Position numbers and translations under genes: made by a program. From Blastopirellula retiformator (lineage in GTDB: Bacteria > Planctomycetota > Planctomycetia > Pirellulales > Pirellulaceae): DNA of 64,000 nt. Location: positions 62,894 to 126,893 of the forward strand of contig NZ_SJPF01000004.1 of the NCBI RefSeq assembly GCF_007859755.1, written 5' to 3'. Positions 1-28,148 of the stretch are shown piece by piece. The stretch's first letter is position 1. Every line of letters starts with the position of its first letter. The notes beneath the pieces are model-generated. The model did no database searches. It was not told the origin of the DNA and saw nothing but the letters and a program-made list of their open reading frames with translations.

Positions 1-1419
1 CTGCTGTCGGTCGTCGCTGGTTCGTCTCAACTTTCCGCCGCAGACGCCAAGCTGCCCAACATCGTCGTCATCTTTATTGACGACATGGGCTACGCCGATA
101 TCGCCCCGTTTGGCGCCACCGCCTATCCGACGCCGCACCTGGACGCGATGGCGAAAGAGGGGACGGTCTGCACCGACTTTTACGTCACCCAGGCCGTTTG
201 CTCGGCTTCGCGCTGCGGGCTACTGACCGGCTGCTACAACAACCGGGTCGGCATCCTGGGCGCCCTCGGCCCCGGCGCCAAACATGGCCTCAACCCGGAC
301 GAGACGACCCTGGCCGAAATCTGCAAGCAGAAGGGTTACGCCACCGCCGCCTACGGCAAATGGCACCTGGGACATCACGAAGAGTTCCTGCCGCTGCAGC
401 ATGGCTTTGACGACTATGTCGGCCTGCCGTACTCCAACGACATGTGGCCCTATCATCCTCGTCTGCGCAACAAGCCCCTCGAACAACGCAAGAAGACTTA
501 TCCCGACCTGCCGCTGATCTCGAAGAACGAAGTGATCGACGAAGAGGTGACGCCCGAAGATCAGAAGAACCTGACGACCCTCTACACCGAGAAAGCGGTC
601 GAGTTCATTGATGATCACGCTAAGGAGCCATTCTTCCTGTACGTGCCCCACTCGATGGTCCACGTGCCGCTGTATGTCTCCGACAAGTTTGCCGGCAAGT
701 CGGGCGCCGGCTTGTTTGGCGACGTGGTGATGGAAGTCGACTGGTCGGTTGGTCAGATTATCGAGGCGCTTCACCGCAACAAGGTTGACGACAACACGCT
801 GGTGATCTTCACTTCGGACAATGGCCCGTGGCTTTCGTACGGTGATCATGCCGGTTCGGCCGGACCGCTGCGAGAAGGGAAGGGGACGATGTGGGACGGC
901 GGCTGCCGCGAACCGACGATCTTTTGGATGCCGGGCCAGATTCCGGCCGGCAAGAGCGTCAGCACGCCGATGATGACGATCGACATCTTGCCGACCGTCG
1001 CCGAGTTAATTGGCGCCAAGCTGCCCGATCATAAGATTGACGGCAAGAACATCTGGCCGATCGTTACTGGCCAGCCGGGCGCCAAGAGCCCGCACGAAGC
1101 GTACTACTTCTACTATGGCGATCAGTTGCAAGCGATCCGCAGCGGCAAGTGGAAGCTGCACTTCCCGCATGGCTACCGCACCATGAATGGTCGCCCCGGC
1201 GGCAAGGGTGGCATTCCGACCAACTACGAACAGGCCAGCACCGGACTGGCGCTGTACAACCTGGAAAGCGACATCGGCGAAACGACCGACGTAAAGGATT
1301 CGCACCCCGACGTCGTCGCCCGACTACAGAAACTGGCGGACGAAGCGCGAGCCGATCTGGGCGATAGCCTGACCAAGACGAAAGGCTCAGGCCTGCGTCC
1401 GCCGGGCCGCGTGAAATGA
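1..1419 (+). CDS. Sulfatase (alkaline phosphatase superfamily), 5' end outside window
   Basis: The reading frame is open from base 1, so the true start lies upstream. The visible N-terminus is the tail of a signal peptide ending near LSAADA, so the enzyme is exported. The sulfatase hallmarks follow in order: a DDMG metal-binding segment at 79-90, the formylglycine site CSASR with its Cys codon at 199-201, GKWHLGH near 355-375, and TSDNG near 815. In this family the Cys is oxidised to formylglycine, which is the catalytic group for hydrolysing sulfate esters, in marine planctomycetes usually sulfated polysaccharides. The third motif position is Ala rather than the commoner Pro, which anaerobic-type and FGE-type maturation both tolerate. 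The specific substrate cannot be read from the sequence. The next gene overlaps the stop codon by 4 bases. Confidence 0.93.
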
Positions 1420-10135: not shown

Positions 10136-11908
10136 ATGCCGCGTGCCAACTCGCTGCTTCTTCGCCTAACTTTGCTCGCTTTGGCGCTGAACGTGGGCTG
10201 CGCTTTCCCCTTCTTTCGTTCGAAAGACAGGTCTCTGGAAGAAGTGGTGGGCGTCGAAAAACTAGCGGCGGAGGACGCCGCGAAAAAGGATTTGGACCAA
10301 CCGGCCGCCGCAGCCGCGCCGCGGGTCGCCCAGGGCAAAAAGCCGATGCCGCCGATCGCGCGGTTCTTCAGCGGCTTGTTTGGTCGCGGTAAGTCGGAAC
10401 CGCCAGCCGATCCGATTTCGACCATCCCGGACGCCGATCCGTCGGACGTCGCCGAGGCGATTCAGCCAAAGATCGAAATCAACAATACCGGCGATATCGG
10501 AGCCGGCGTCGTCGCGCCCAAACAAGAGGGGCCAACGCAAGTCGTCATGCCGCAAGTCAGCAATCTGGCCGAGATGACGCCGAGCAACATCGCCGCGCCG
10601 AAACTAGCCGACGTGTTGGCCAATCCGACCCAATCGACCAGCTCGCCGGAGCCGCCCCCTTCGCAATCAGGCTCGCTAACCGCGGCGCTACGAAGCGCCC
10701 TGGACAACGCCGCCAAAGAGGGGTTGGCCCACGACGCTCCGCAAGCGAGCCGTTTTTCGACCACGATCGATTCGACGGCGCCGCAAGCCGCGGCGACCTC
10801 CTCGCCGTCGCCATCGGCGGGCCAATCGCAGATTGTCGAACTCGATTCGGCCCCGCTCGGCTCGCGTCAGCCTGAACCGACGCCGGTGGTCACCACCGCC
10901 AAGACTCCGCCGGTCGCCGCGCAAGTGATTGAAAACCCGACCATCAACTCGTCGCCGGTTGTAACCGCCGCTCGGAAGCTAGACGGTAATCCGCTGCGTG
11001 GCGATTCGCCGGTCAGCGGCTCGGCGATGACCGAACTGGCCGCCAGCCCGATTGGCGCCAAGCCGCCGAAAGCCCAAACGGTTTTCCCGGCCCAGGAAAG
11101 CGCTGCCGTCAACAACACCGCCGCCGAACCGGCCGAGGCCACCACGCTGGTCGCCTTCCAAACGCATGTGCATGCCGGCGACTCGATCGTCAACCAGCTG
11201 AAAGAAAGCCGGCGGGTCAACCAGTTCCGCCCGATGTTTGACGCCGCGGTTCCGTCGCCCGCCGCTCAGGCCACCACCGCCGCGGTCAAAGCGACCGAAG
11301 AAGCCCAACCGAGCGAGCCGACAACGCCCACGCCGACCCGCGCGGCGATCGTCGCCGTCGCGCCGAATCGCTATCAACCGACGCCTCCAGTTGCGACGGA
11401 AGTGGCGCCTGCCACCCCAACTGCCGTCGCCGCGACGCCGACTCCGGTCGAGATCGCCACGCCCGCGTTGCCGGCGACTCCGCAGTTGCCGACCGAGTGG
11501 ACCTCGTCCACGAGTTCGACAACGGCGCCCGCAAACCGCGCCGCGTCCCCGCCGCGCAGCGAAGCGTTCGCTCAACTGGCGCCGTCGGAGATGCCGTCAG
11601 AAAGCCTCGAGCAGCCCGGCAGCGAAACGGCTCCGCAAGAGCAACTCGTCACGACGCCGACCAACCCGGTCCGCGCTGTGCCGCGAGTGGCGACTCCGCC
11701 GGTTGGCGCCACGCCGACCGCCAACGTGCCGCAAGTTGCAACCCGCCCGACGCCGCCGACCGTTCCGCCGGTCGGAGCGCTGCCGCGGGGGCAGCTGATT
11801 CCGAGACGGGACCCGGTCGCCACGCCAAAGCTGGCGCCGGTCGTCACCGTCGAAGAATACCGCCGCATGCAACAGCAGCGGCGCAGTCAGGCGACGCGCC
11901 GCTATTAA
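10136..11908 (+). CDS. Pro/Ala/Thr-rich lipoprotein-like protein, function unknown
   Basis: A 590-residue protein with a signal-peptide-like N-terminus (residues 1-22) ending LNVGC, a loose lipobox, so it may be lipid-anchored. Residues about 45-560 are low-complexity Pro/Ala/Thr/Ser sequence with many TP, AAP and PPVG runs and no recognisable catalytic motif. The last 25 residues (VVTVEEYRRMQQQRRSQ) are more ordered and basic and could be a binding tail. The composition suggests an extended, wall- or envelope-spanning linker. Its TAA and the stop of the minus-strand kinase gene overlap in one TTAA tetranucleotide, so the two genes are exactly tail to tail. No function can be assigned. Confidence 0.7.
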   Translation: MPRANSLLLRLTLLALALNVGCAFPFFRSKDRSLEEVVGVEKLAAEDAAKKDLDQPAAAAAPRVAQGKKPMPPIARFFSGLFGRGKSEPPADPISTIPDADPSDVAEAIQPKIEINNTGDIGAGVVAPKQEGPTQVVMPQVSNLAEMTPSNIAAPKLADVLANPTQSTSSPEPPPSQSGSLTAALRSALDNAAKEGLAHDAPQASRFSTTIDSTAPQAAATSSPSPSAGQSQIVELDSAPLGSRQPEPTPVVTTAKTPPVAAQVIENPTINSSPVVTAARKLDGNPLRGDSPVSGSAMTELAASPIGAKPPKAQTVFPAQESAAVNNTAAEPAEATTLVAFQTHVHAGDSIVNQLKESRRVNQFRPMFDAAVPSPAAQATTAAVKATEEAQPSEPTTPTPTRAAIVAVAPNRYQPTPPVATEVAPATPTAVAATPTPVEIATPALPATPQLPTEWTSSTSSTTAPANRAASPPRSEAFAQLAPSEMPSESLEQPGSETAPQEQLVTTPTNPVRAVPRVATPPVGATPTANVPQVATRPTPPTVPPVGALPRGQLIPRRDPVATPKLAPVVTVEEYRRMQQQRRSQATRRY

Positions 11909-14900
11909 AGCTCGCGCCAGTTGACGTCAATTCGCCCGTGTAGCCGCGCTGCGATATCGCGGTACTCGGGTCGATTGTCAACCAGCATTCGGGCCGCATC
12001 TCGCAGCGGCGTCCCTTCGACATGCTGACAATAGACGACCTCCGGCACGTCGCACGGGATCAACCCGGCGGCGCCTTCGGCGGTCGGTAGGGTTCCGACA
12101 TCCGACTCCCCAATGTTCGAGCAGGGGAAGAAGACGCTGACCGCACATGCTCCTCCCAACGAAGCGAGACGGGGCCGACAATCGGTCAGCGCCTTGGCGA
12201 TTTCTTCGCGGGGCGGGGCGCCGGTGAGCGCCGCCGAATTGGAGCTCTGCGTCAGATCGGTCTGAGCCCGAATGATGACGGTTCGGCAGATGTTCTCTAG
12301 CATCTTGGCCGCCTTCATGGCGCCATCGCGGGTGCAGATGAGCAAGTTCTCGAGCCCTTGGTGCTCTTCGCAAATCTTGGCCCGCGTTTCGCGATCGGCG
12401 ACTAGCAGGAATTCGTGGAAACGCGGTTCGACGGCGCGAATCGAAGTATCGTTGACTTCGCCTACTTCCAGGTCAAAGAAGTTCGCCAGCCGCTTCAGTT
12501 CTCCTTCCACATTCTTAAACGCCAGGTTGGTATCGATCAGTTTCGCGCGTACTACCTGGGCGAACTGACATACGCCCAACAAGGCGATGCCATGCGTCCG
12601 CAGATGGGCGTACTTGATCCAACCATCGTAGTCGGTCGCGGCGCTCTTGCTGCGATCGCGGCCCCGATTGTCTTTGCTGTCGTAATTGGCGTCGAGCAGC
12701 TTTTGGCGATGGCGATAGACTTCGCCCTGTAGCCGCTCGGCCATCGCGCGGGCTTTGTCTTCTAGCTGCCGGAAATAGTCGTCCACCGACTGCCGCAAGT
12801 CGCGGGTCCGCTGCAGGCGAAACTCTTCCATGTCCAAGTGCGATAGCAACCAGGCGGTGATCTTCTGAGCGGTCTCTTCTCCCGATTGGCGCAACTTCGG
12901 CGCAATCTCGCTATAGAGCGAAACGGAGCGTTTCTCGCTCGACTCCATCTCGGCCGCACTTTGGCCGATCACCGCATCGAGAAACTCAAAGACCTTCAGC
13001 GACCGCTGCAGCGGATCGTCACATGGCTGGTCCAGCTGTTTAAACTCTTGGGCGAGGACGGCGCGGAAATACTCGTCGGGATCGGCGCCAAGTTCGTTGT
13101 GCACCATCATGAACATCGTCTGCAGCAGCGGATCGAGCGCCAGGTTCTCTTCCGCCACCAGCTGATCGACATGTTCTTGCAGCACGCGTTCAAAACGATT
13201 TTGACGCTCGTCTCCTTCCTCTTCTTGCTTGTTGAGCGTCGCCATCCGGCGGCGATCCGAGCTGCCAGCGCAGTCGTCGCCACCGAGCCATCGCTGGACG
13301 ACGGCGCTGGCGATCTCGCAGCTATAGCGTTCGGTCGCCGAGCGAGAACTGAGCGGAACGGTGTAGGTTGAGAAGGTGTTGATCCTCGGCGGGCCCCCTT
13401 CGTCGGCGGCGATGTTGGCGTTCAGGTTGTCGACGTAACAACCGCTGCGACTGCGGGCCCGCATCAGCAGGTAATCGGAAAGCTCGTCAATCTGGCGGTC
13501 GTAGTCCCCATTTTTTAGTTCATCCCCCCAGTGCAACAGCTGAAAGGTGGGACGCCGAAAGCCGCGTAAATCAATCTCCGGAATCCGCGCCGAGGGATCG
13601 CCGGGGTACTTTTGCGATTGCAAGATCTGATGCAGTTCGGTCAAGCAGGCGAGCCCGTTGGAGCGGGCCAAGTCTTGTTCGTCCGTCTTGCGCGGACCGG
13701 CATGAACCAACATCACTTCGAGATCGCTCAGTTCCTGTCCTCGCTTCTGCAGCAAGTGACAGATGGCGAACGCCAGGTCGAGCACGATCCCGCTGCCGGC
13801 GCCGCCATTGATCGACGCCATCAGGATGACGCGAGGTTCGCCGGCAACGGCGTTGGGCGTCAGTTCGGACTGATCGCCAACCGCATCCAGCGCATCGCCG
13901 ATCGATTGCAACACCGAGTCAATATGGTCCAGATAGGCGATTCGGCCGAGCGGACGAAGACCTTCGGTCGCCAGCGAATTCGGAATGTTATAGAGCCAAC
14001 GGCGGCTGACCGACTGCGTGATGCGCGCCGATTCGCTGCGATACGACTGCGGGCGACGCAGCGGAATCAACAACCGCGTGATGTCGGTCGCCTCCGGCAT
14101 CGCCGGCGGAATCTCCATCGAGTTCAACGTCTTCGTGTCGGTATCGACGGCGATCGCCTGGTACCAGGCTTGTCCTTGTTCCTTGCCGCTGTCACGATAT
14201 TTTTGCTCGATCGAATAGGCGAGCCGAACGCCAACGCCGCCGACGCCGATCACCAACGTCGGACGATGTTTCGACTCGGCGGCAGCCCAAGCGACCGGTT
14301 CTTTGCGGGCCGGCTGCAGCTCCGGCAGATCGTCCCACAGCTGATGCGAGATGGGCGAAGGCGCCTCAGGCGCCGACATCTCCAGCGTCGCCGACTTCTC
14401 TCCAACCGGAGCGTCTTCTTCGGTCGTCTCGGTGGTGCGCGTATCGGCGGCGCAGATCGTCTTGGTGTCGTTATTGGTCGACGCGTGCGGCGCGACAACG
14501 CCGGTGGCCGGCAAGCTCGACGCGGGATCGGACGCCGCTACTAGCGCCGCCAGCATTTCGCGACAGTTGCGGAATCGCTGCGCGGGGTCTTTGGCCAACG
14601 CGCGATCGATGATCGGGCGATCCGCTTCCGGCAGCGAATTGAGTCGCGGCTTGCTGCTGAGGTGCTGCGCCGTCAACTGGGCCGGCGTTTTGCCGGGGAA
14701 GGGGAGGGCGCCGGTCAGCATTTCCTGGAAGACGATCGCCAGGCTGTATTGGTCGCTTTGTTTCGACGGCTGATCATGAAACACTTCGGGCGCCGCATAG
14801 ACCGGCGTCAGTCCCGCCATCATCGAGGCGGTGACGTCTTGCAGATGCTTCACCAGCCCGAAGTCGGCCACTTTCGAGTGGTCGCCGACGATCAGCAGAT

Positions 14901-15333
14901 TCTCGGGCTTCACATCCAGATGCTGGAGCGAGTGCTGCTCGCTCATGTAATCGAGCCCTTCGGCCGAGTCGCTCAGATAGCGAAGCAGTTCGGCTCGGGG
15001 GACGCCCGGCAGGCCGGCGGTGCGGCACTCTTCAAACCGGTCCTTCAAACTCTTGTCGGCCAGTTCGGTCACGATGACCAATTGACCGTCAATCACTTCG
15101 ACCCGCTCTAAAGAGAGCAGAAAGGGATGGCGTACGCTGCGGATGCGGTGGAGCGCTTTCAGTTCGCGAGCGGCGCGCGCTTCGTCATGGAATCCATAAA
15201 CGAATTTCACCGCCTTTTGCAGTCCGCCGGGGGCTTCGGCGGTCCATACCTCGCCGTAGCCGCCTGCGCCAATTCTTTGGCGCACGCGGTAGCCTGCTAC
15301 TTCACGTACATGCGCTGGAACTTCGGTTGACAC
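11905..15333 (-). CDS. Ser/Thr protein kinase fused to a tubulin/FtsZ-like domain
   Basis: A 1142-residue protein. Residues 15-265 are a Hanks-type kinase: glycine loop IGAGGYGEV (21-29), ATP-binding Lys43 (AVK), catalytic HLD at 138-140 with Lys142, DFG at 157-159 and APE at 181-183. All key residues are present, with Leu instead of Arg in the HRD motif. After a Thr-rich linker (270-350) comes a Rossmann-like GVGGVGVR (363-370). At 510-515 GGAGSG follows, which matches the glycine-rich phosphate-binding T4 signature of tubulin/FtsZ folds (the Tubulin_2-like family). The remaining 600 residues are mostly helical, with coiled-coil-like segments near 820-900, and resemble nothing I can name. 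No membrane helix is seen, so it is probably cytosolic. An FHA protein gene lies 105 bases upstream on the same strand. Confidence 0.88.
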   Translation of the reverse strand: MSTEVPAHVREVAGYRVRQRIGAGGYGEVWTAEAPGGLQKAVKFVYGFHDEARAARELKALHRIRSVRHPFLLSLERVEVIDGQLVIVTELADKSLKDRFEECRTAGLPGVPRAELLRYLSDSAEGLDYMSEQHSLQHLDVKPENLLIVGDHSKVADFGLVKHLQDVTASMMAGLTPVYAAPEVFHDQPSKQSDQYSLAIVFQEMLTGALPFPGKTPAQLTAQHLSSKPRLNSLPEADRPIIDRALAKDPAQRFRNCREMLAALVAASDPASSLPATGVVAPHASTNNDTKTICAADTRTTETTEEDAPVGEKSATLEMSAPEAPSPISHQLWDDLPELQPARKEPVAWAAAESKHRPTLVIGVGGVGVRLAYSIEQKYRDSGKEQGQAWYQAIAVDTDTKTLNSMEIPPAMPEATDITRLLIPLRRPQSYRSESARITQSVSRRWLYNIPNSLATEGLRPLGRIAYLDHIDSVLQSIGDALDAVGDQSELTPNAVAGEPRVILMASINGGAGSGIVLDLAFAICHLLQKRGQELSDLEVMLVHAGPRKTDEQDLARSNGLACLTELHQILQSQKYPGDPSARIPEIDLRGFRRPTFQLLHWGDELKNGDYDRQIDELSDYLLMRARSRSGCYVDNLNANIAADEGGPPRINTFSTYTVPLSSRSATERYSCEIASAVVQRWLGGDDCAGSSDRRRMATLNKQEEEGDERQNRFERVLQEHVDQLVAEENLALDPLLQTMFMMVHNELGADPDEYFRAVLAQEFKQLDQPCDDPLQRSLKVFEFLDAVIGQSAAEMESSEKRSVSLYSEIAPKLRQSGEETAQKITAWLLSHLDMEEFRLQRTRDLRQSVDDYFRQLEDKARAMAERLQGEVYRHRQKLLDANYDSKDNRGRDRSKSAATDYDGWIKYAHLRTHGIALLGVCQFAQVVRAKLIDTNLAFKNVEGELKRLANFFDLEVGEVNDTSIRAVEPRFHEFLLVADRETRAKICEEHQGLENLLICTRDGAMKAAKMLENICRTVIIRAQTDLTQSSNSAALTGAPPREEIAKALTDCRPRLASLGGACAVSVFFPCSNIGESDVGTLPTAEGAAGLIPCDVPEVVYCQHVEGTPLRDAARMLVDNRPEYRDIAARLHGRIDVNWREL

Positions 15334-15438: not shown

Positions 15439-16563
15439 CTACGCTTGCCCAGCGTCGCGTCGTCGATACCTTCCTCGACTCATATTCGCTCCCAGGTCGC
15501 GGAACCGCTGCGCGCTCGCCTCGGCATGCACCCCAGTCGCAATCGTAACAATGTGCTTCTCTTGGCAGACGCGAATCGCTTCGCGCATCGACTCTTGCAG
15601 CTGTTGGTCGCCGTCAATCTCACGAGCGACCGTCTCATGAAATTCGATGTAGTCGGGGGCGAGGTCCAAGTAGTCCTCCAGCCGCGACTTCGACGGATGG
15701 TAGCCGGCGAACGCCGTCTCGCAGCCGATCGATTGCAATTCGTTCATAAACTCGCGAAAGAACGGCAGCTCGCAAACCGATTCATCCGGGATGACGATCA
15801 CCGTCCGCCGCGCTTCGGGCGATTGATCGCGAGCGTAGGCGACCGAATCGAGGAAGCTGGTCGAGCCGATTTCGTATTGTTCGGGCCGCAAAAAAAGACA
15901 GGAGTTTTCAGGCAGCATCTCGGCCGCCACATAGGCCCGCAGGCGATGCAAACGCTGCAAACGCTCGGTCAATCGGCACTCGGTATCGAGAATCTTGCGG
16001 CTGATTGGATCGTCAGGACTGACGTTGCTATCGATCATGCGCCGCACGAGAAATCCAAACGGATCGCCGCTGGCTAGATCGTAGATGCCGTCAAAGTCGA
16101 CGCGCACGCCACCCACGGCGGCGATCTCTTGCCACCGGCGAAAGGCCTGCAGCGAATCGAAAAAAGAGCCTACTTCAGTCGGCGCGGCGCCGCCGCCATC
16201 CATCTGCAGCGTGACGGTCTGCCGCTGCTGCGATTGATTGCCGCTATGAAAATCGAATTCGATATCGGCGACCATTAACGTATCGCCATCCGAGATGATC
16301 TTTTCGGTGATCTTCTCACCGTTGACGAAGGTGCCGTTGGTGCTGTTTAGATCGCGGAGTAAGTACTGGCTGCCTTCTTTCAACAGCAGCGCATGTTCGC
16401 GCGAAACTCTCCCCGATTCGACCGGGTAGTCGCACGAATCATTGCGCCCGATCGAGAAAGGAAACTTTTCAATCCCCAGTTTTCGCGTCTCGCCGCTCTC
16501 CGCCGAAATGATTTCGAAGAACGGGGCGCCTACTTGCGGATCGAACAAGACTTCTGTGTGCAT
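15439..16563 (-). CDS. FHA domain protein with degenerate EAL-like domain
   Basis: I start at the ATG at 16561-16563 (MHTEVLFDP); an upstream in-frame stretch to 16731 is Arg/Cys-rich and unconvincing. This gives 374 residues. Residues 31-100 are an FHA domain with the phosphothreonine-binding set G39-R40, S54-R55-x-H57 and N76-G77. After a Gln-rich linker, residues about 150-360 have the length and layout of an EAL domain. However, the EAL triplet is replaced (GFLVR), the DDFG-like loop reads AFAGYHPS and the EGVE loop reads TGVHAE. c-di-GMP hydrolysis is therefore unlikely and a binding or scaffold role more plausible. The gene is upstream of, and co-directional with, the kinase-tubulin gene, an obvious source of phosphothreonine. 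Confidence 0.82.
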   Translation of the reverse strand: MHTEVLFDPQVGAPFFEIISAESGETRKLGIEKFPFSIGRNDSCDYPVESGRVSREHALLLKEGSQYLLRDLNSTNGTFVNGEKITEKIISDGDTLMVADIEFDFHSGNQSQQRQTVTLQMDGGGAAPTEVGSFFDSLQAFRRWQEIAAVGGVRVDFDGIYDLASGDPFGFLVRRMIDSNVSPDDPISRKILDTECRLTERLQRLHRLRAYVAAEMLPENSCLFLRPEQYEIGSTSFLDSVAYARDQSPEARRTVIVIPDESVCELPFFREFMNELQSIGCETAFAGYHPSKSRLEDYLDLAPDYIEFHETVAREIDGDQQLQESMREAIRVCQEKHIVTIATGVHAEASAQRFRDLGANMSRGRYRRRDAGQA

Positions 16564-16780
16564 CGGGAATATTCTCGCAGGCGAAAAGTCACGTCGACTG
16601 AAACCCTTTCGACAAGAGAGTTTTTGCCGAGAAAGGGGACATCGGATAAGGAAAAGCGCACGCGCCTCGCAGCAACGTTCATCGAAAACATAGCATTGAA
16701 ATCTTCGGGCCGACGAAATTTCTCTATGCACGTCCTGTGGTTTCTACAGAATCGCCCCGCTCGTCGCTTCTTATTGACCT

Positions 16781-18277
16781 ATGTTTCAGATGGCTTCCAA
16801 AGCCGCTGCGGCGGCGATGTCGCCAAAAGTCAACGCTCTTCTCGACTTCTTATCCGTCATTCAGCAAGAGACGTTTATGCAACGCCGACCGCTTCGCGTA
16901 TTACTCGTATCTCAGGACCGCTCTTTCCTCCGCCGCACCGCCGAATTCTTAAGCGCCTGTCGCATAGCGGCGTATGTCGTCGCCGATGCCGAGCAGGCCG
17001 AGTGGGCGCTGGCCAGCCGTGAGCCCGATATCGTCGTTGTCGATACGGCGATGCCCAAAGCCTGGTCCGTACTGCAAAGTCCACGGCGGGAGCGGCACAC
17101 CACCCAAGCTTACGTCTACGCCATCGCCATCACCGACGACGACTCGCCGGATCGCGTTTTTGAGGCGCTGGCCGGGGGCGCCGACGACATCATTCCGCGG
17201 CCTCTGCGATTTACAGAACTATTGGTGCGCGTACGCTCCGCCGCTCGGTCGCTGGAAGTGGAAAGCCGTCTCTATCGTCGCGTAGGTCGCCGCTCGACCA
17301 GCGGATTGGGCAACTCGGGCGTCTTGTTGCGTCTCTTGCGGGAAGATCTCCGCGACGCCGCCACCACCGGCAACGAAGTAAGCGTGGCGCTATTTGATAT
17401 CGACTATGCTCTCCGCTTTGGCGCCGATTCCGGCTTCGACCGCATCGTCGAGCAAGTAACCTCGACCATCAGCGGCGAGATGCTTCCCACCTATCGCATG
17501 TGCCAGCCCTCGGTCGATCAATTGGCGGTCTTGCTGCCCAATTCCACTTCGGACGAAGCGTATCAATGGGCCGAAGAGGTCCGCCAAAAGATCGCCTCCA
17601 CCGAGTTTCAACACGCCGATACCACGCTAAAATTGACGGTCAGCGGCGGCGTCGCCGCTTCGGCCGATTCGGGACCAATCGCCGAAGAAATGTGGGAAAA
17701 CGTGCAGGAACGGCTCGATTTCGCGAAAAACTCCGGCGGCAATTTCGTCGCCTCGCTTCGGCAATTGCAAAACGAAGACGCCGCCGGCGGCTCGCATGGC
17801 CGCTTGTTTGACGGCACGACGACCTCCGATGTCCTGCGTCCCGCGTTCGTTCATCTCTCGACCACAACGCCGGCCGACGAAGTGATCGCCGCGTTCGCCA
17901 AGCATGATCTCGACGTCGCCCCGGTGCTGGACGCCCAGCGCCAATTTGCCGGCGCCATCACACGCGACGTGGTGCAAAACCGGGCCGTCCGCTCGCGCGA
18001 GCTAACCGCGGCCGAGTTGGTTGATCCCAACTTTCCGCAAATGGACTCGAACGCCTCGTTCAGCGAACTGGTCAACTTCTTCGCGGAACATCCCACCCCG
18101 TGCGTGGCGATCGTCGACCATGGCAAACCGCTTGGCTTCGTCTCTCGCGACGACCTGGCGCTGTTGAGCGAACCGCTTGATTCGTCCAGCTACGCCGAAT
18201 CGATAGACGACATCCCGACCACCGAATTCTACGTTGTTAGTCGCCCGCAGTTGCTGGAAGTGGGCGCGGAAGCGTAA
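16781..18277 (+). CDS. Receiver / degenerate GGDEF / CBS-pair signalling protein
   Basis: 498 residues from 16781; a second possible start is the ATG at 16877 (MQRRPLRVLLVSQD), where the receiver domain begins. Residues 38-150 are a receiver domain with the phospho-acceptor Asp in DIVVVDTAMP and a DDIIPRPL end. Residues about 190-310 follow the GGDEF fold, with a FDIDYALRFGADSGFDRIV segment. The signature loop reads SVDQLA instead of GGEEF, so diguanylate cyclase activity is not expected. Residues about 335-485 form two CBS repeats (VAPVLDAQRQFAGAITR and VAIVDHGKPLGFVSR), which usually sense adenosyl ligands. It is divergent from the FHA/EAL-like gene, so both c-di-GMP-type domains at this locus look inactive. 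Its neighbours imply a shared signalling role. Confidence 0.82.
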   Translation: MFQMASKAAAAAMSPKVNALLDFLSVIQQETFMQRRPLRVLLVSQDRSFLRRTAEFLSACRIAAYVVADAEQAEWALASREPDIVVVDTAMPKAWSVLQSPRRERHTTQAYVYAIAITDDDSPDRVFEALAGGADDIIPRPLRFTELLVRVRSAARSLEVESRLYRRVGRRSTSGLGNSGVLLRLLREDLRDAATTGNEVSVALFDIDYALRFGADSGFDRIVEQVTSTISGEMLPTYRMCQPSVDQLAVLLPNSTSDEAYQWAEEVRQKIASTEFQHADTTLKLTVSGGVAASADSGPIAEEMWENVQERLDFAKNSGGNFVASLRQLQNEDAAGGSHGRLFDGTTTSDVLRPAFVHLSTTTPADEVIAAFAKHDLDVAPVLDAQRQFAGAITRDVVQNRAVRSRELTAAELVDPNFPQMDSNASFSELVNFFAEHPTPCVAIVDHGKPLGFVSRDDLALLSEPLDSSSYAESIDDIPTTEFYVVSRPQLLEVGAEA

Positions 18278-18907: not shown

Positions 18908-20236
18908 TTATTCGTCCCCCGCCACCACCGTAAAGTAGCTCTTCACCACCCGGTCAAAATACTCAGGCTTCATCTCCAGCGGGAGCCCTTTGTAGATGCA
19001 GTAGTTGCGGACCTGGCCCAGCAAGTCGCGGGGCTGGCAACGTCGCATCGGGCGATTGGTGGGCAGGTAGTGCTTTTCGACCAGGTGGTCGACCGCGGCG
19101 GCGTTGTACTCGCAGTTGAACTGCTTGGCGAAGATCCGGAAGAGAGTACGGAACTCGTCGAGCTGCGCGTCGCGGACTTCGATCTTGTAAGGAATGCGAC
19201 GCAAGAAGGCGTCGTCGGTCAGATCTTTGGGCTCGAGGTTGGTCGAGAAGATGATCAGCTGTTCAAACGGTACCTGGATCTTCTTGCCGTTTGCTAGCGC
19301 CTGGTAGTCGACCCGATTTTCGAGCGGTACGATCCAGCGGTTGAGCAGCTGCGTCGGCTCCATTCGCTGTCGTCCAAAGTCGTCGATCAACAGACAGCCG
19401 CAATTGCTCTTCATCTGCAGCGACGCTTCGCCGATGTTGTTGATGACGTCGTGTCTGATTTCCAAACTGTCCATCGTAAGTTCGCCACCCACAATCACCG
19501 TGGGTCGCCGAATCTTAACCCAACGATGGTCGTAGCTGTCCGCCTTCAGGATGCTGCTCTGAGCCTCTTCGATCACTTCGTGATAGACGGTATCGAACAG
19601 CTTGACGTATTGGCCATCTTCGATGATCGTGCGCGGGATCCAGATATGCTGACCGTAGCAGGCGGTAATCCGCTTTGCTAGCGTCGTTTTGCCGTTGCCC
19701 GGGGCCCCGTAGAGAAAGAGTCCGGCGCCCGAGTTCACGGCCGGGCCGAGATTGTCGAACAGATCATCGTCGACCGAGAGTCCTTTGAAGGCCTCTTCCA
19801 GCTGGTCTCGCTGCGGCGCTTCGTTGCGGATCGACTGGGCTTCGACCGAGGTGATGTAATCTTCCAAAATGACCGGCGCAGCCCCGAAATAGGTGCAACT
19901 GGCCATATACGACTGGGCGCGGGTCCGCCCTTGGTCGGTCAGCGCGTAGACGAAATCGTTGAGCGCCGCCGAACCGGTATGTTGCAAAATTTGCCGCGTG
20001 CGAAGCGATACGAACAGCGCGTCTAGAATGCCAAACGGCAGGCAGATCTTCTCGGCGATCTGACGACCGCTGGCCGAACCGATGTTCAGCAACAGCTTGC
20101 AGATCAACGATTCGATCAACTGAGGAGAGAGTCGCGTCTCTTCCAACGACTTTGGTTCTTCAGGACGAAAGTTTTCGTCCGACATCAGCGAGGCGAGCAA
20201 GGTGTTTTTCAGATCGAGCGTAGCGGCAGACGACAC
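18908..20236 (-). CDS. AAA-type ATPase with N-terminal winged-helix-like domain
   Basis: 442 residues. Residues about 35-115 look like a winged-helix/DUF-type module (QLIESLICKLLLNIG...GRQIAEKICLPFGIL...FVYALTDQGRTRA). The ATPase core has Walker A GAPGNGKT (177-184), Walker B CGCLLIDDFG, a sensor-1 IIFSTNLEP, and an arginine-finger-like FLRRIPYKIEV. The C-terminal lid contains CQPRDLLGQVRNYC. It resembles ATPases of planctomycetes and myxobacteria annotated near pilus or secretion genes; the substrate is unknown. It is predicted cytosolic. It reads away from the small gene at 20542, with a shared upstream region. Confidence 0.85.
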   Translation of the reverse strand: MSSAATLDLKNTLLASLMSDENFRPEEPKSLEETRLSPQLIESLICKLLLNIGSASGRQIAEKICLPFGILDALFVSLRTRQILQHTGSAALNDFVYALTDQGRTRAQSYMASCTYFGAAPVILEDYITSVEAQSIRNEAPQRDQLEEAFKGLSVDDDLFDNLGPAVNSGAGLFLYGAPGNGKTTLAKRITACYGQHIWIPRTIIEDGQYVKLFDTVYHEVIEEAQSSILKADSYDHRWVKIRRPTVIVGGELTMDSLEIRHDVINNIGEASLQMKSNCGCLLIDDFGRQRMEPTQLLNRWIVPLENRVDYQALANGKKIQVPFEQLIIFSTNLEPKDLTDDAFLRRIPYKIEVRDAQLDEFRTLFRIFAKQFNCEYNAAAVDHLVEKHYLPTNRPMRRCQPRDLLGQVRNYCIYKGLPLEMKPEYFDRVVKSYFTVVAGDE

Positions 20237-22579: not shown

Positions 22580-22824
22580 CAAAATCCGTCCCCTCATCTG
22601 ATTCTCTCAGCGCCACACGCATAACCGGCATCTTCGGCGCCTCAGGCCCCAAAAAGTGGGAGCTTCCTACGGGCATTGCGAATCCCGTTTCTTGGACAAA
22701 CTCATTGTCCAACCTAGTTTTTCAAAGATGTCCAGCTGATGGCGGGCCTGCCGTCGCGCGCTTTCAGCTCGCCCCACGCAGCGCAAGCGGCGCTGATGCA
22801 TGACTTGAAACTGAGTTGACGCCA

Positions 22825-24312
22825 ATGATGAAAAAGTCGCCACTTACCAATGAACTCCTGGCCGCAATCGCTTGCGGGCTGCTGTTCGTGATTGCGACGA
22901 TCTTCTGCGTAGCGACTGGGCAAGTCGGACTCGGCAGCATGCTGGCCTGCGGCGCGGCTGGTCTTTCGGCGGTAGCGTTACTACTTATATGGCGCTCGGT
23001 AAAAACGACCGAAGACCGCGTTATCCGCCAGCTGCAGTTGCTGGCCAGCGCGTCGACCGAACAACTGGAAACCGACGATCTGCACGACATGTGTCCCCAG
23101 GCGCGAGCCTTGCCTCGCTGGAAAACGCCGCTGGAACTTTGCTTTCGGCGGATGAAGTCGCTCTCGGACGAGGCGCACGAGTTGCAACAGTCGCGGGTTC
23201 GCAGCGAAGTAAAGGCCCACCTGACCGGTCTGCGCCACGAACAGATGCGAGAAATCGTCGAGAAGCTGTCGGAACCGGTTTTGATGACCAACCAGTACGA
23301 CGAGATCATTTTCGCCAACGAAGTGGCCCGCGAAATCTTCGGCATCGTCAGTCTGGCCGAAAAAACGATGGCCCAGGACGCGATCGGATCGGAAGGGATC
23401 GTGCAACTGCTGCAAGAGACGCGGCTCCGCAAGACGCCGACGCAGCGAGTCAGCGAGATCGAAATGCACGACTCGACCGGCGACAAGCATTGGTACCGCA
23501 TCACCGTCGGCACGATCGGACAGCAACTCGAAAACGAAATGGGCGCCGACGAGCCGAACTTCGGCGCCGTCGCCGTGCTGCGAGACATTAGCGGCTACAA
23601 AGCGATCCAGCGCCGCAACGCCGAATTCGTTTCGGCCGTGAGTCACGAGATGAAGACGCCGCTGGCCGGCATCAAGGCGTATGTCGAACTGCTGGCCGAC
23701 GGCGAGGCGGAAGACGAAGAGACCCGCGATGAGTTTCTGCAGGTGATCAACAGCCAGGCCGACCGCCTGCAGCGGCTGATCGACAATCTGCTGAACTTGG
23801 CCCGGATCGAAGCGGGCGTCGTCAACGTCAACAAGAAGCCGCGCTCGCTCAACGAACTGCTGGAGGAAGCGTTCCGCATCGTCCAGCCAACCGCCGAGCA
23901 AAAGAACATCACGCTCGTTTCCGACCTCAGCCCGATGTACTTAGGCGTGCTGGTCGATCGCGACATGATCATGCAGGCGGCGATTAACCTGCTGTCGAAC
24001 GCCCTCAAGTACACCCCCAACGACGGCCGGGTAACCTTGCGCAGCCGGATGCAGGATCGCGAAGTGGTGTTTGAGGTCGAGGACACTGGCGTCGGTCTCA
24101 ATTCGGAAGATTGCGATCGGGTGTTCGAGAAGTTCTATCGCGTCAAGAAAGATCAAAAGATGGCCACGGGAACCGGACTTGGGTTGCCCTTGGCCAAACA
24201 TATTGTGGAAGACGTTCATGGCGGCGAACTGAACGTCTCCAGCGAACCGGGCGTCGGCTCGACGTTCCGGATTCGTCTCCCCACGGTCCAAGTGGCCGAA
24301 ACCGTCTCGTAG
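22825..24312 (+). CDS. Membrane sensor histidine kinase with PAS domain
   Basis: 495 residues from the ATG at 22825. Two helices (about 9-30 and 35-57) anchor the protein, with almost no periplasmic loop. A linker and coiled coil come next, then a PAS domain (about 135-255: SEPVLMTNQYDEIIFANEVAREIFG ... AVLRDISGYK in outline). The catalytic core has the H-box SAVSHEMKTPL with His274, N-box INLLSNALKYTP, G1 VEDTGVGL, F-box VFEKFYRV and G2 GTGLGLPLAKH, so it should be active. With so little outside the membrane, the signal is probably cytoplasmic or intramembrane through PAS. It is the first gene of a five-gene run that includes its likely partner regulator 28 bases downstream. Confidence 0.93.
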   Translation: MMKKSPLTNELLAAIACGLLFVIATIFCVATGQVGLGSMLACGAAGLSAVALLLIWRSVKTTEDRVIRQLQLLASASTEQLETDDLHDMCPQARALPRWKTPLELCFRRMKSLSDEAHELQQSRVRSEVKAHLTGLRHEQMREIVEKLSEPVLMTNQYDEIIFANEVAREIFGIVSLAEKTMAQDAIGSEGIVQLLQETRLRKTPTQRVSEIEMHDSTGDKHWYRITVGTIGQQLENEMGADEPNFGAVAVLRDISGYKAIQRRNAEFVSAVSHEMKTPLAGIKAYVELLADGEAEDEETRDEFLQVINSQADRLQRLIDNLLNLARIEAGVVNVNKKPRSLNELLEEAFRIVQPTAEQKNITLVSDLSPMYLGVLVDRDMIMQAAINLLSNALKYTPNDGRVTLRSRMQDREVVFEVEDTGVGLNSEDCDRVFEKFYRVKKDQKMATGTGLGLPLAKHIVEDVHGGELNVSSEPGVGSTFRIRLPTVQVAETVS

Positions 24313-24340
24313 TTAATCAGTTCGTTTGTAGGCCATCAAG

Positions 24341-24826
24341 ATGAACGCTTCACAACCTTCCATGGAAGATTTTCGTCAGATGACGACCACTTCGACCGCC
24401 GTCACGTCAACCCACACCGCCAGCAAGCGCATCTTGCTGGTCGATGACGAAATGCACATTCTCCGCGCCGCTGAGTTCAAACTGAAGCGGAGCGGTTACG
24501 AAATCGACTGCGTCGAGGATGGCGAACAGGCGTGGGAAGCGATTCAAGAGCAAATGCCCGACCTGCTGATCACCGACTTCCACATGCCGCGGCTTGATGG
24601 CCTCGGCCTGTGCCGCCGCGTGCGAGAGAACGAGGCGACCCGCCAACTGCCGATCATCATGCTGACCGCCAAGGGATTTGAAATGACGTCGGACGACAAC
24701 CTGGAGTCGCTCGACATCGCCGCCATCTTGGCGAAACCTTTCAGTCCTCGCGGCCTGGTGAACTGCGTCGAAGCGGTATTGACCACCGGTTCGTTCGAGC
24801 AACCGCCGGTCAGCTTCCTGCGTTAA
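24341..24826 (+). CDS. Single-domain response regulator
   Basis: 161 residues. After a Thr/Ser-rich lead of about 28 residues, a CheY-like receiver follows: acidic pair D35-D36 (LLVDDEMHI), phospho-acceptor D79 (LLITDFHMPRLDG), Thr in MLTAKG and the Lys in LAKPFSP. There is no output domain, so it signals by protein contact, as CheY or Spo0F do. It lies between the histidine kinase and a STAS protein with gaps of 28 and 22 bases, so it is almost certainly co-transcribed with both. Confidence 0.93.
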   Translation: MNASQPSMEDFRQMTTTSTAVTSTHTASKRILLVDDEMHILRAAEFKLKRSGYEIDCVEDGEQAWEAIQEQMPDLLITDFHMPRLDGLGLCRRVRENEATRQLPIIMLTAKGFEMTSDDNLESLDIAAILAKPFSPRGLVNCVEAVLTTGSFEQPPVSFLR

Positions 24827-24848
24827 ACCATTTTTCACAAAGTAGCCG

Positions 24849-25175
24849 ATGAGCCTGCCGACCGAAATTTTTGGTGAAGTCGTGGTGGTCCACACGCCTG
24901 AAGAATTGGGCGAAGACCAAGCCGACGGCGTCGAAGCGTTCTTGCGATCGCGAGAACGCAATCGGGTCATCGTCGACCTGGACGGCACCGAGACGATTGA
25001 CAGCGCCGGTCTGACTTGCCTCCTATCAGCGCAACAACAACTGCGCGAAGGGGGAGGAGAATTGAAGATTACCACTTCCAACCACGTCAATCGCAAGATC
25101 CTGGAAATCACCCGATTGGACAAGCGGCTGGAGGTATTTGAAAACATGATCGAAGCGGTAAAGAGCTTCGTCTAA
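24849..25175 (+). CDS. STAS domain protein (anti-anti-sigma-like)
   Basis: 108 residues, a bare STAS domain. VIVDLDGTETIDSAGLTCLL contains the conserved Ser52 that is the phospho-switch in SpoIIAA/RsbV-type antagonists. No anti-sigma kinase gene is next to it. It sits between a response regulator and the PilB-type ATPase with 22-base gaps. It may therefore be controlled by a partner-switching kinase elsewhere, or act on the secretion motor rather than on a sigma factor. Confidence 0.9.
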   Translation: MSLPTEIFGEVVVVHTPEELGEDQADGVEAFLRSRERNRVIVDLDGTETIDSAGLTCLLSAQQQLREGGGELKITTSNHVNRKILEITRLDKRLEVFENMIEAVKSFV

Positions 25176-25197
25176 TCGTCATTGGAAATGATTCCCC

Positions 25198-26931
25198 ATG
25201 AACGCGCCCACCACGAGCGCCCCGATGCGATTAGGTAACGTCCTCACCAAGCGGGGGTTCGTTACGATCGAGCAATTGGAGGTCGCGCTCGACCACCAAA
25301 AAAACAAAGGGAAGAACAAGCTTCTCGGCGAAATCCTCGTCGACCTCGGCTACTGCACCGAAGACCAGATTATCGAATGTCTGGCGGTCGAGTATGGCAT
25401 TCCTTACGCCAAGCTGGAAGCGAGACTCTACGATCCCCGCGTGGTCGGCATCTTGCCGCGCGAGTACATCGAAAAAAACCTGGTCTTTCCGCTGTTCTTG
25501 ATCGATGACGTGCTGACGATCGCGGTCACCGAGATTTCCAATCTCTTTCTGATTGACGAAATCCAGACGCTTACCGAAAAGCAGGTGCAGATTGTCGCCT
25601 CGTCGCCGCGCGACGTGCGGCGAATGATCCAGAACCTGCCTGACTCGAAGGTGTTCGTCATCGACGACATCATCGAGGATAGCGATCAGTCGGAAGTGAC
25701 GCTGATCGAAGACGCGATCGAGGACATCGGCGACGTCGAGGAAATCGCCGGTCAGTCACCGGTCATCCGTCTGGTTAACTACGTCATCTACAATGCCGTC
25801 AAAGAGGGCGCCAGCGATATTCATATCGAGCCGGCCGAGCGGTGCATGCGGGTTCGTTATCGCATCGACGGCAAATTGCACAAATCGCTGGAAGTGCCCC
25901 AGCACCTTTTAAACGCGGTCAACAGCCGTATCAAGATTATGGCGGGACTCGACATCAGCGAGCGCCGTCTGCCGCAAGATGGTCGCGTCCACGTGATGCT
26001 CGACTCGCGGAAGATCGACTTGCGCGTTAGCACCTTCCCGGGCAATCGCGGCGAAAAGACGGTGATTCGCGTGCTCGATACGAAAAAGGTGACGTTGGTC
26101 CTGAAACACCTTGGTTTCGCCGAGGACATCCTTGACCGCTTCCTGAACAACATTCACGCTCCGAACGGCATTGTGCTGGTGACCGGTCCGACCGGTAGCG
26201 GTAAGTCGACGACGCTTTACGCGGCGCTCAACGAAATCGCCACCATGGAAAACAACATCTGCACCGTCGAAGACCCGATCGAATATCACCTGCCGCTGAT
26301 CAACCAGTTTCAAGTGCAAGAGCGGGTCGGTCTGACCTTCTCTAAAGCGCTGCGAACGCTGCTTCGCCAAGACCCCGACGTGATCATGGTGGGTGAAGTC
26401 CGCGATGAAGAGACGGGACGTACGGCGATTCAAGCGGCGCTGACCGGGCACTTGGTCTTCAGCACGCTGCATACCAACGACGCTGTTTCGGCCGTGACCC
26501 GATTGGTCAACATGGGAGTCGAGCCCTACCTGATTGGCGCCGCGCTCAACATGGTTTTGGCCCAGCGACTCGTACGCAGCATCTGCCCCAAGTGCAGCGA
26601 AGCGTACGAACCGCCGCGTAACCTGCGAAAAACGCTCGAGCGGATGGGCTACGAGATTCCAGTCTTCCGCAAAGGAATCGGCTGCCGCTACTGCCGCAAC
26701 TCGGGCTATAGCGGACGTCTCGGCGTGCACGAGATGCTAACGATCGACGACGAACTGCGCGACGCCATCGTCGCCGGCATGCCAATTGGCGAACTGCGGC
26801 GACTTGCTGTGAAGAGCAAAAATTTGATCTCGATGCAGCATGACGGTTTCCGGAAGGTCCGTGAAGGAATCACGACGATCGAAGAAGTGCTGCATGCCAC
26901 CGGCGATGTGGCGATGGCCAGCATGACGTAA
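25198..26931 (+). CDS. pilB: Type II secretion / type IV pilus assembly ATPase
   Basis: A 577-residue hexameric secretion ATPase of the GspE/PilB family. The N-terminal MshEN-like domain (residues 1-150: RLGNVLTKRGFVT, ...LLGEILVDLGYC) is followed by the core. The core has Walker A GPTGSGKST (330-338, Lys336), the Asp box with EDPIEYHL, Walker B VIMVGEVRDEET and the His box TGHLVFSTLHTND. The C-terminal zinc knuckle uses Cys463, Cys466, Cys496 and Cys499 (CPKC ... CRYC). It powers pilin or pseudopilin polymerisation at the inner membrane. Length and motif set are standard; whether the machine is T4P or T2SS cannot be told here. MshEN domains in this family can bind c-di-GMP. Confidence 0.95.
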   Translation: MNAPTTSAPMRLGNVLTKRGFVTIEQLEVALDHQKNKGKNKLLGEILVDLGYCTEDQIIECLAVEYGIPYAKLEARLYDPRVVGILPREYIEKNLVFPLFLIDDVLTIAVTEISNLFLIDEIQTLTEKQVQIVASSPRDVRRMIQNLPDSKVFVIDDIIEDSDQSEVTLIEDAIEDIGDVEEIAGQSPVIRLVNYVIYNAVKEGASDIHIEPAERCMRVRYRIDGKLHKSLEVPQHLLNAVNSRIKIMAGLDISERRLPQDGRVHVMLDSRKIDLRVSTFPGNRGEKTVIRVLDTKKVTLVLKHLGFAEDILDRFLNNIHAPNGIVLVTGPTGSGKSTTLYAALNEIATMENNICTVEDPIEYHLPLINQFQVQERVGLTFSKALRTLLRQDPDVIMVGEVRDEETGRTAIQAALTGHLVFSTLHTNDAVSAVTRLVNMGVEPYLIGAALNMVLAQRLVRSICPKCSEAYEPPRNLRKTLERMGYEIPVFRKGIGCRYCRNSGYSGRLGVHEMLTIDDELRDAIVAGMPIGELRRLAVKSKNLISMQHDGFRKVREGITTIEEVLHATGDVAMASMT

Positions 26932-26954
26932 CCCAAGATTGGTAAAGTTCCAGC

Positions 26955-28148
26955 ATGTTAAGCTTCGCCTATCAAGCCCGCGATACCCTCGGCCATGTGC
27001 ACGAGGGCGCCATCGAAGCCGGTTCGACCGAAGAAGCGGCGATGGTGCTGCATCGCGACGGCATGCACGTTCTATCGCTGGAGCAAGAGGAAGAAGGGGG
27101 CTCCCTCTTTCCATCGCGGATCTCCCGGTCCGACATCATCTACTTCACCAATCAGCTGTCGGTGATGGTCGACACCGGCATCAACCTTTCGACCGCGATC
27201 GAATCGGTCGCGTCGCAAGAGAAGAACGAAGCGCTGAAGACGCTGCTTAACGACATCCGCCGCAGCGTTGAAGGGGGCGAAGACTTTTCAGCCGCACTGG
27301 CCCGCTATCCCAAGCACTTCAACCGCACCTACATCTCGCTCGTCAAAGCGAGCGAACAGACCGGTATGCTGGGCGAAATGCTGGAGCGGATCGCATCGTA
27401 CCTGCGCGGCGAAGTCGAAATCCGCAACAAGGTTCGCGCCGCGCTCGCCTATCCAGCGGTGATGGTGGTGCTAGCAACGTCGGTGACAATTTTCCTGCTG
27501 ACTTACGTGCTGCCAAAGTTCACCCCGCTGTTCGAGCGGAAAGGCGCCAAACTGCCGACGCCGACCATCATCATGATGACGGCGTCCGACGTGCTGCTCG
27601 ACTACTGGTGGGCCTGGTTGATCGGACTAGTTGCCGCGGTCATCGGCTTCCTTTACTTCCGCACGACCGAACGTGGCCGCAAGACGATTGATAGCGTCAA
27701 GATCACGATGCCGATCGTCGGTCCGATGATGCGCAAGATTACGATCGCCCGTAGCCTGAGCACGCTGGGGACGCTAGTTCGCAGCGACGTGCCGGTGCTG
27801 CAGTCGCTGGAACTTACCGCCGATATCAGCCAAAACTACTACTACGACAAGCTCTGGCGAGACGTGATCGACTCGGTTACCTCGGGTAATCAAATCCACG
27901 AAACGCTCGCCAAAAGCAAGCTGATTCCACCGACGGTCGTGCAAATGATCTCGGCCGGCGAAGAGACCGGTCGCTTGGACGACGTGCTGATGAAGGTCAG
28001 CCGCCACTATGAGCAAGAAGTCGATCTCTCGATCAAAACGGCGACCAGCCTGATAGAACCGTTGATGATCACCGTGATGGGTACGGTCGTCGGCGGCATC
28101 GCGATGGCGCTGCTGTTGCCGATCTTCTCGCTATCGCGAAACGTCTAG
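26955..28148 (+). CDS. pilC: Type II secretion / type IV pilus inner-membrane platform protein
   Basis: A 397-residue GspF/PilC protein, 23 bases after the ATPase stop. Two T2SSF domains are visible: the first about residues 57-180 (FTNQLSVMVDTGINLSTAIES...RYPKHFNRTYISLVKASEQTG in outline), the second about 260-385 with IARSLSTLGTLVRSDVPVLQ and SAGEETGRLDDVL. Each is followed by a hydrophobic segment, and there is a central helix pair near residues 165-225. It is the cytoplasmic-membrane platform that the ATPase turns to build the pilus or pseudopilus. It is the last gene of the HK-RR-STAS-ATPase-platform run. No pilin, PilD or secretin gene lies nearby. Confidence 0.95.
   Translation: MLSFAYQARDTLGHVHEGAIEAGSTEEAAMVLHRDGMHVLSLEQEEEGGSLFPSRISRSDIIYFTNQLSVMVDTGINLSTAIESVASQEKNEALKTLLNDIRRSVEGGEDFSAALARYPKHFNRTYISLVKASEQTGMLGEMLERIASYLRGEVEIRNKVRAALAYPAVMVVLATSVTIFLLTYVLPKFTPLFERKGAKLPTPTIIMMTASDVLLDYWWAWLIGLVAAVIGFLYFRTTERGRKTIDSVKITMPIVGPMMRKITIARSLSTLGTLVRSDVPVLQSLELTADISQNYYYDKLWRDVIDSVTSGNQIHETLAKSKLIPPTVVQMISAGEETGRLDDVLMKVSRHYEQEVDLSIKTATSLIEPLMITVMGTVVGGIAMALLLPIFSLSRNV

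Follow-up and report, generated by a model that had tools for sequence, protein, structure and literature searches.

A gene on the minus strand at positions 11905 to 15333 of a 64,000-nucleotide stretch of the Blastopirellula retiformator genome (contig NZ_SJPF01000004.1, positions 62,894 to 126,893; this whole stretch is called the window below) joins a Ser/Thr kinase to a tubulin-like domain. Our best reading, put forward tentatively, is that it belongs to a phospho-signalling module in the cytoplasm, built on a tubulin fold as scaffold, with a tethered kinase, an FHA reader and an AAA partner. This reading draws on the fusion itself, its kinase motifs, its predicted fold, its gene neighbourhood and the absence of the FHA-EAL gene in two cases where the kinase is dead or missing. 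Taken jointly with the phospho-relay proposed below, the gene product is pictured with the same reserve as a cytoplasmic Ser/Thr kinase, a flexible linker and a complete but divergent tubulin-fold module bearing a long helical arm.

The fusion as such has been in print since 2010. Makarova and Koonin reported four planctomycete FtsZl1 (FtsZ-like 1) proteins with an extra N-terminal kinase domain, and a figure legend names Blastopirellula marina DSM 3645 and Rhodopirellula baltica (PMC2875224). An earlier note on this DNA, made from the letters alone, had proposed the fold and knew of no characterized kinase fusion; the fold holds up, but the novelty is not supported. Within the open-licence literature, we found no functional study of the fusion, and neither its FHA/AAA linkage nor its inserted-arm fold in print.

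Domains and predicted fold of the fusion protein

The fusion gene and its parts are as follows.

11905..15333, minus strand: kinase and tubulin-fold (FtsZl1/Tubulin_2) fusion gene, 1142 amino acids, GTG start, single open frame
14569..15291, minus strand: Hanks kinase domain, residues 15-255, non-RD (HLD), with K, HLD and DFG kept (Pfam PF00069, E 4.6e-31)
14263..14550, minus strand: Thr-rich low-complexity linker, residues 262-357 (sequence, motif statistics)
13285..14262, minus strand: N-terminal (nucleotide-binding) part of the tubulin fold and start of its C-terminal domain, residues 358-683 (PF13809, E 1.5e-23; model)
14230..14247, minus strand: T1-type loop GVGGVG, residues 363-368 (alignment)
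13945..14004, minus strand: signature of the clade, RRWLYN..PxSxxTEGLRPLGR, lying between T1 and T4, residues 444-463 (alignment)
13789..13806, minus strand: T4-type loop GGAGSG, residues 510-515 (alignment)
13414..13455, minus strand: T7-like region, residues 627-640, without a recognizable NxDxxD (placed by secondary-structure order)
12157..13284, minus strand: helical arm, residues about 684-1059, inside the tubulin C-terminal domain in the model (model 12..783 aligned on CetZ 1..341)
11944..12150, minus strand: C-terminal strands and helices that complete the tubulin fold in the model, residues about 1062-1130

The earlier note's claim of a kinase and a tubulin/FtsZ-like domain in one frame is borne out by Pfam. 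The search places Pkinase at residues 15-255, above its curated cut-off, and Tubulin_2 (PF13809) at residues 360-599 with 84 bits against a curated cut-off of 27; the Tubulin family (PF00091) reaches 22 bits (E 2.2e-4), below its cut-off of 33. The motifs also lie where that note had put them, with Lys43, HLD at 138-140, DFG at 157-159, GVGGVGVR from 363 and GGAGSG at 510-515.

For comparison, we used an alignment of 36 Tubulin_2 proteins, from which L060, L051 and L038 were omitted as belonging to another type without a kinase, and 80 loci retained from 134 relatives in a scan of GTDB contigs. The catalytic Lys, HxD and DFG of Hanks-type Ser/Thr kinases are all present in the window's protein, and Lys, HLD and D[FY]G occur in all 78 complete kinases of the 80 loci, two of which have DYG (a 79th kinase, that of L074, is cut and falls outside this count). 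Within the first aligned set, the motifs are kept in 34 of 35 kinases. The exception, L055, has lost the catalytic Asp (HLN) and sits on the longest branch of the tree (3.26, where the median is 0.39). Judged by median sequence identity to the window (65% for the kinase, 28% for the tubulin part before the arm, 14% for the arm and 25% for the C-terminal stretch), the kinase is the best-kept part of the fusion. Non-RD kinases often do not need activation-loop phosphorylation.

The structure model predicts a complete tubulin fold with a long helical arm inserted in the C-terminal domain. It aligns with the CetZ structures 3zid, 4b45 and 4b46 at 15-19% identity, the tubulin part matches FtsZ in a profile comparison (E 1.7e-5, probability 78%), and Tubulin_2 is matched by all 36 aligned members at E ≤ 0.01. 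We conclude that a tubulin/FtsZ fold is supported by the modelling, the outcome that the earlier note's proposed structure prediction had looked for, and a non-tubulin Rossmann fold is rejected on the model and its structural alignment. A PDB sequence search with the tubulin-part profile, which we did not use as evidence, returned no tubulin among the best 60 of 166 matches, which are helical chains such as designed bundles and haemagglutinin stalks.

The arm helices in the model are 23-47 residues long each and lie between residues 703 and 1030. What had been described as about 600 unassigned helical residues consists of this arm, from about 684 to 1059, and a C-terminal stretch at about 1062-1130, the strands of which complete the tubulin fold in the model. 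The layout of N-terminal kinase, FtsZ-like domain, coiled coil and helical region is that of the FtsZl1 fusions of 2010 (PMC2875224). The long helical region after the FtsZ-like domain, a trait of FtsZl1 in that paper, is present here in the model. Where the 2010 paper found no resemblance to tubulins in the C-terminal part and was unable to place T6-H7 (PMC2875224), our model instead predicts a complete fold with an inserted arm. The CetZ chains, at 330-360 residues, have no room for a kinase or an arm, unlike the window's protein.

The loops of the tubulin part bear on whether it still uses nucleotide. Among the 36 aligned members, T1 reads GxGGx[GA] in 21 and the strict GxGGxG in 13, T4 reads GG[AT][GA][SG] in 31 and the strict GGTG[ST]G in 10, and DTD is kept in 28. 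In the T7-like region, whose equivalence we infer from secondary-structure order, the position of the presumed first Asp holds D in 20, A in 7 and E in 6 of the 36, and the residue at +3 is R in 27 and D or E in none. If the two regions are indeed equivalent, the protein is unlikely to hydrolyse nucleotide in the usual tubulin manner. The main rival to our reading builds on these losses: the tubulin fold would no longer use nucleotide and would merely dimerize or localize the kinase via its arm. The minority of strict T1 and T4 loops, the unrecognizable T7 acids and a tubulin part far more divergent than the kinase all speak for such an inert scaffold. Against it, the relaxed loops and DTD are retained despite this strong divergence, which suggests some nucleotide binding. 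We regard the inert scaffold as unlikely, albeit the strongest competitor, and nucleotide binding by the tubulin module as possible on sequence grounds.

Distribution and conserved neighbors

A Tubulin_2 protein occurs in 37 of 60 genomes (the window's own included), or 32 of 54 of good quality, and is fused to a kinase in all but one (L043) of the 36 aligned members. The fusion is likewise present in 79 of the 80 GTDB loci, the remaining one (L081) starting at a contig end. This answers the earlier note's call for a taxonomic survey and rules out an assembly artefact as the origin of the fusion. Searches at the class and phylum levels added 30 loci (L150-L179, two of them from congeners already counted), of which 27 are fused, two (L162 and L179) have no kinase and one (L178) has its start at the edge of a contig. 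Matches were found in 25 of 59 genomes drawn class-wide and in 3 of 79 drawn phylum-wide, the window's own among the latter. These surveys make the fusion an established feature of the window's class that is patchy within its order. The nearest named relative that we found is Blastopirellula marina DSM 3645 (L069), with 82% identity over the tubulin part. As the earlier note expected of a planctomycete, the host appears to lack FtsZ: a PF00091 search of its genome (97% complete) gives the fusion gene alone, below cut-off, while the same search finds a match in 13 of 14 control genomes.

Two observations on copy number and provenance came with the survey. In family f23, two genomes carry two fusion genes in tandem (L180, 6994-14252, and L181, 6406-13468) with a third Tubulin_2 copy elsewhere, and three Tubulin_2 matches were obtained in 11 of the 13 genomes of this family; the tandem pair might form a heterodimer. 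Two records with a planctomycete fusion are titled Candidatus Nealsonbacteria and "bacterium" (L074 and L139), and these contigs are perhaps mis-binned.

Clustering of the genes around the 36 loci identified three recurrent neighbors among the clusters seen in more than six loci, present in the window as follows.

15439..16731, minus strand: FHA protein with a degenerate EAL domain, the next gene upstream, separated from the fusion by 105 bp (Pfam FHA 1.2e-18, EAL 5.1e-16)
16543..16563, minus strand: Thr motif MHTEVLF at the N-terminus of the FHA protein (alignment, model)
16781..18277, plus strand: receiver, degenerate GGDEF and CBS protein, divergent (Pfam)
18908..20236, minus strand: AAA/P-loop NTPase of the fusion-linked type, 442 amino acids (neighbor clustering, profile searches)

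FHA-EAL genes were clustered at 30 of the 36 loci, a count that missed three lying beside the fusion by genome coordinates (L040, L062 and L063), AAA genes at 23 and receiver-GGDEF-CBS genes at 18. At the 80 loci, the numbers are 72, 56 and 25 at E ≤ 1e-5, and 71 (1e-50), 55 (1e-60) and 22 (E ≤ 1e-50) at stricter thresholds. Where at least 6 kb upstream and at least 4 kb downstream are available (51 loci), FHA-EAL is found at 50 and AAA at 41, with the same result at 1e-50 and 1e-60, respectively. The GGDEF signature is lost in the window (QPSVDQ), as GG[DE]EF is in 17 of the 19 rows of its cluster, the window's included. The AAA NTPase also has a second, wider-spread paralogue elsewhere, and one or the other is present in 56 of 60 genomes at E ≤ 1e-60.

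Genome-wide, FHA-EAL accompanies the fusion in 33 of 34 genomes and occurs in 2 of 26 without it; for the linked AAA type, the counts are 30 of 34 and 1 of 26, at a cut-off (E ≤ 1e-205) set after two score groups were seen and excluding hits in G022, G036 and G011 that are partial, their starts being no more than six bases from the end of a contig. This comparison flatters our reading, both profiles having been built from the fusion's neighbors and relatedness having been ignored, so its weight lies in the absences. FHA-EAL is missing from G007, whose kinase has lost the catalytic Asp (HLN) and has the longest branch, and from G040, whose fusion copy has no kinase domain but which retains the AAA gene. 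It is also missing from G023 and G055, which have just the other, kinase-less Tubulin_2 type. Absence where the kinase is dead or missing is what a kinase-reader pair predicts, although the events are few (two cases).

The window's genome has 13 FHA matches, and the only one of full FHA-EAL length is the fusion's neighbor. This protein probably starts, as in its relatives, at the ATG of residue 57 (16563), which opens the MHTEVLF motif; the motif sits in a low-confidence tail of the model that is probably disordered. FHA residues G95, R96, S110, H113, S130-T134 and N137-G138 are invariant in all 30 aligned FHA-EAL proteins. Of seven EAL residues that we take to be catalytic, all are kept in 14 of the 30 proteins and at least one is lost in 16; the window's copy has none of the seven. 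The two classes require three changes on the kinase tree, compared to 10.3 in shuffles, and gene order tracks them: the 16 degenerate genes lie directly upstream of the fusion on the same strand, whereas 12 of the 14 intact ones are divergent and further upstream.

Many FHA proteins of the degenerate class begin MxT[QE][VL][ML]; in seven, a motif of this kind recurs downstream of the FHA domain. The pattern T[QE][VILM][VILMF] is enriched over shuffles in FHA N-terminal tails (13 vs 0.5), FHA-EAL linkers (7 vs 0.7) and kinase linkers (7 vs 0.8). This test is descriptive, since the pattern was written after the sequences were inspected, and a second pattern, T[QE][VILMF]..?[DEG], carries no weight because it is also high in kinase domains (31 vs 4.1).

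The window also holds three very long frames at 39765-62621 (1467, 4712 and 908 amino acids), which may encode surface proteins that carry dockerin-like repeats close to the end.

A possible phosphothreonine relay and its alternatives

In the module that we propose, the tubulin fold would set the position or activity of the kinase, via nucleotide binding and/or self-association through the fold or the arm. The kinase would phosphorylate Thr-rich tails, namely its own linker and the tail of the neighboring FHA protein, and the FHA domain would bind such phosphothreonines in cis or in trans. The signal may then leave through the EAL domain, which in some lineages looks like an intact cyclic-di-GMP phosphodiesterase; in the window's lineage, where EAL appears catalytically dead, output could pass through it as a binding surface. 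The AAA NTPase might assemble or take apart the complex. A more specific form, which we think doubtful, is that the nucleotide state or assembly of the tubulin module, with its inserted arm of about 370 residues, gates a phosphothreonine relay to the FHA reader (its phosphodiesterase dead in some lineages), and that the AAA NTPase resets the complex. An envelope or surface machine is a likelier physiological target of the module than cell division.

Pairs of a Ser/Thr kinase and an FHA reader bearing Thr in a flexible tail are known from PknB/GarA and from PpkA/Fha of type VI secretion systems. The pairing is the same here, with the differences that the reader carries an EAL domain and the kinase a tubulin fold. 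The main text of the 2010 paper on the fusion makes no mention of FHA (PMC2875224).

Several points weigh against this module. The case for it is computational. Only 6 of the 35 kinase linkers carry the Thr motif, and of the 30 FHA tails 13 do; four of these tail motifs come from near-identical congeners, 12 of the 13 and all seven linker motifs belong to the degenerate-EAL class, and the window's own linker carries TLEM, outside the tested pattern. One locus with an intact kinase (L116) has no FHA or AAA gene within 10 kb. Among 13 class-wide loci (L188 and L189 being second loci of the genomes of L180 and L181), FHA and AAA occur together in two, both of family f24, and neither occurs at seven f23 loci, two f26 loci and one f24 locus. 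Nor is FHA-EAL confined to the surroundings of the fusion, with 48 matches in 35 genomes. Finally, a pilB-like gene lies near only 1 of the 80 relatives, although for 41 of them one flank is shorter than 9 kb.

This last count bears most on the idea that the module regulates a surface appendage, controlling type IV pilus-like structures or secretion through c-di-GMP-type domains. The window contains suggestive genes:

22816-28148: genes for a histidine kinase, T2SSE-MshEN and T2SSF, of the kind found in type IV pili or type II secretion, at a distance of 7 to 13 kb
25198-28148: the T2SSE-MshEN and T2SSF genes among them, about 10 kb from the fusion

The partners are derived from EAL and GGDEF, and the best outside hint on output is Synechocystis Sll0445, assigned by its paper to the same Pfam family, which co-fractionates with pilus proteins and whose mutant is impaired in phototaxis (PMC9880817). 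The likeness of Sll0445 to the fusion is one of family assignment; the account of it names no kinase domain, and the two co-studied genes encode FtsA-like and DivIC-like proteins (PMC9880817). With a pilB-like gene near a single relative, a pilus neighborhood is not supported as a general rule, and we consider an appendage regulator improbable.

Our reading of a signalling module must also be set against a role in division, in which the tubulin module would form a filament in place of FtsZ with the kinase as a switch. The predicted complete fold and the absence of another tubulin/FtsZ from the PF00091 search of the window's genome are consistent with this, and the 2010 paper leaves room for filaments that form by some novel mechanism (PMC2875224). 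Yet all of these organisms must divide, and Tubulin_2 is as patchy among them as the surveys above indicate, a distribution on which we reject this very unlikely alternative; the T7-like region without NxDxxD and three identified neighbor clusters that are not division genes argue in the same direction. An anti-phage or conflict system is the least credible explanation and is rejected on the PADLOC results: the kinase resembles the MADS6, PD-T4-6 and MkoA models, but in the 25 matches listed of 27 every aligned stretch covers part of the kinase and stops between residues 261 and 378, so that these matches rest on the kinase domain and linker, the FHA-EAL and receiver proteins have no PADLOC match at E ≤ 0.01, AAA matches IetA alone, over the P-loop, and the three identified neighbor clusters are not known defence genes.

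If the more specific form, in which the tubulin module gates the relay, is right, bacteria without FtsZ would be using a cytoskeletal fold to switch signalling. With its conserved FHA-EAL and AAA neighbors, the fusion has named partners for which binding and phosphorylation are simple to test. A complete fold that carries an inserted arm would, if correct, alter the described architecture of at least this FtsZl1 branch, and the predicted completeness of the fold would make polymerization a fair question again. The partner set and the inserted-arm fold are the points that deserve attention.

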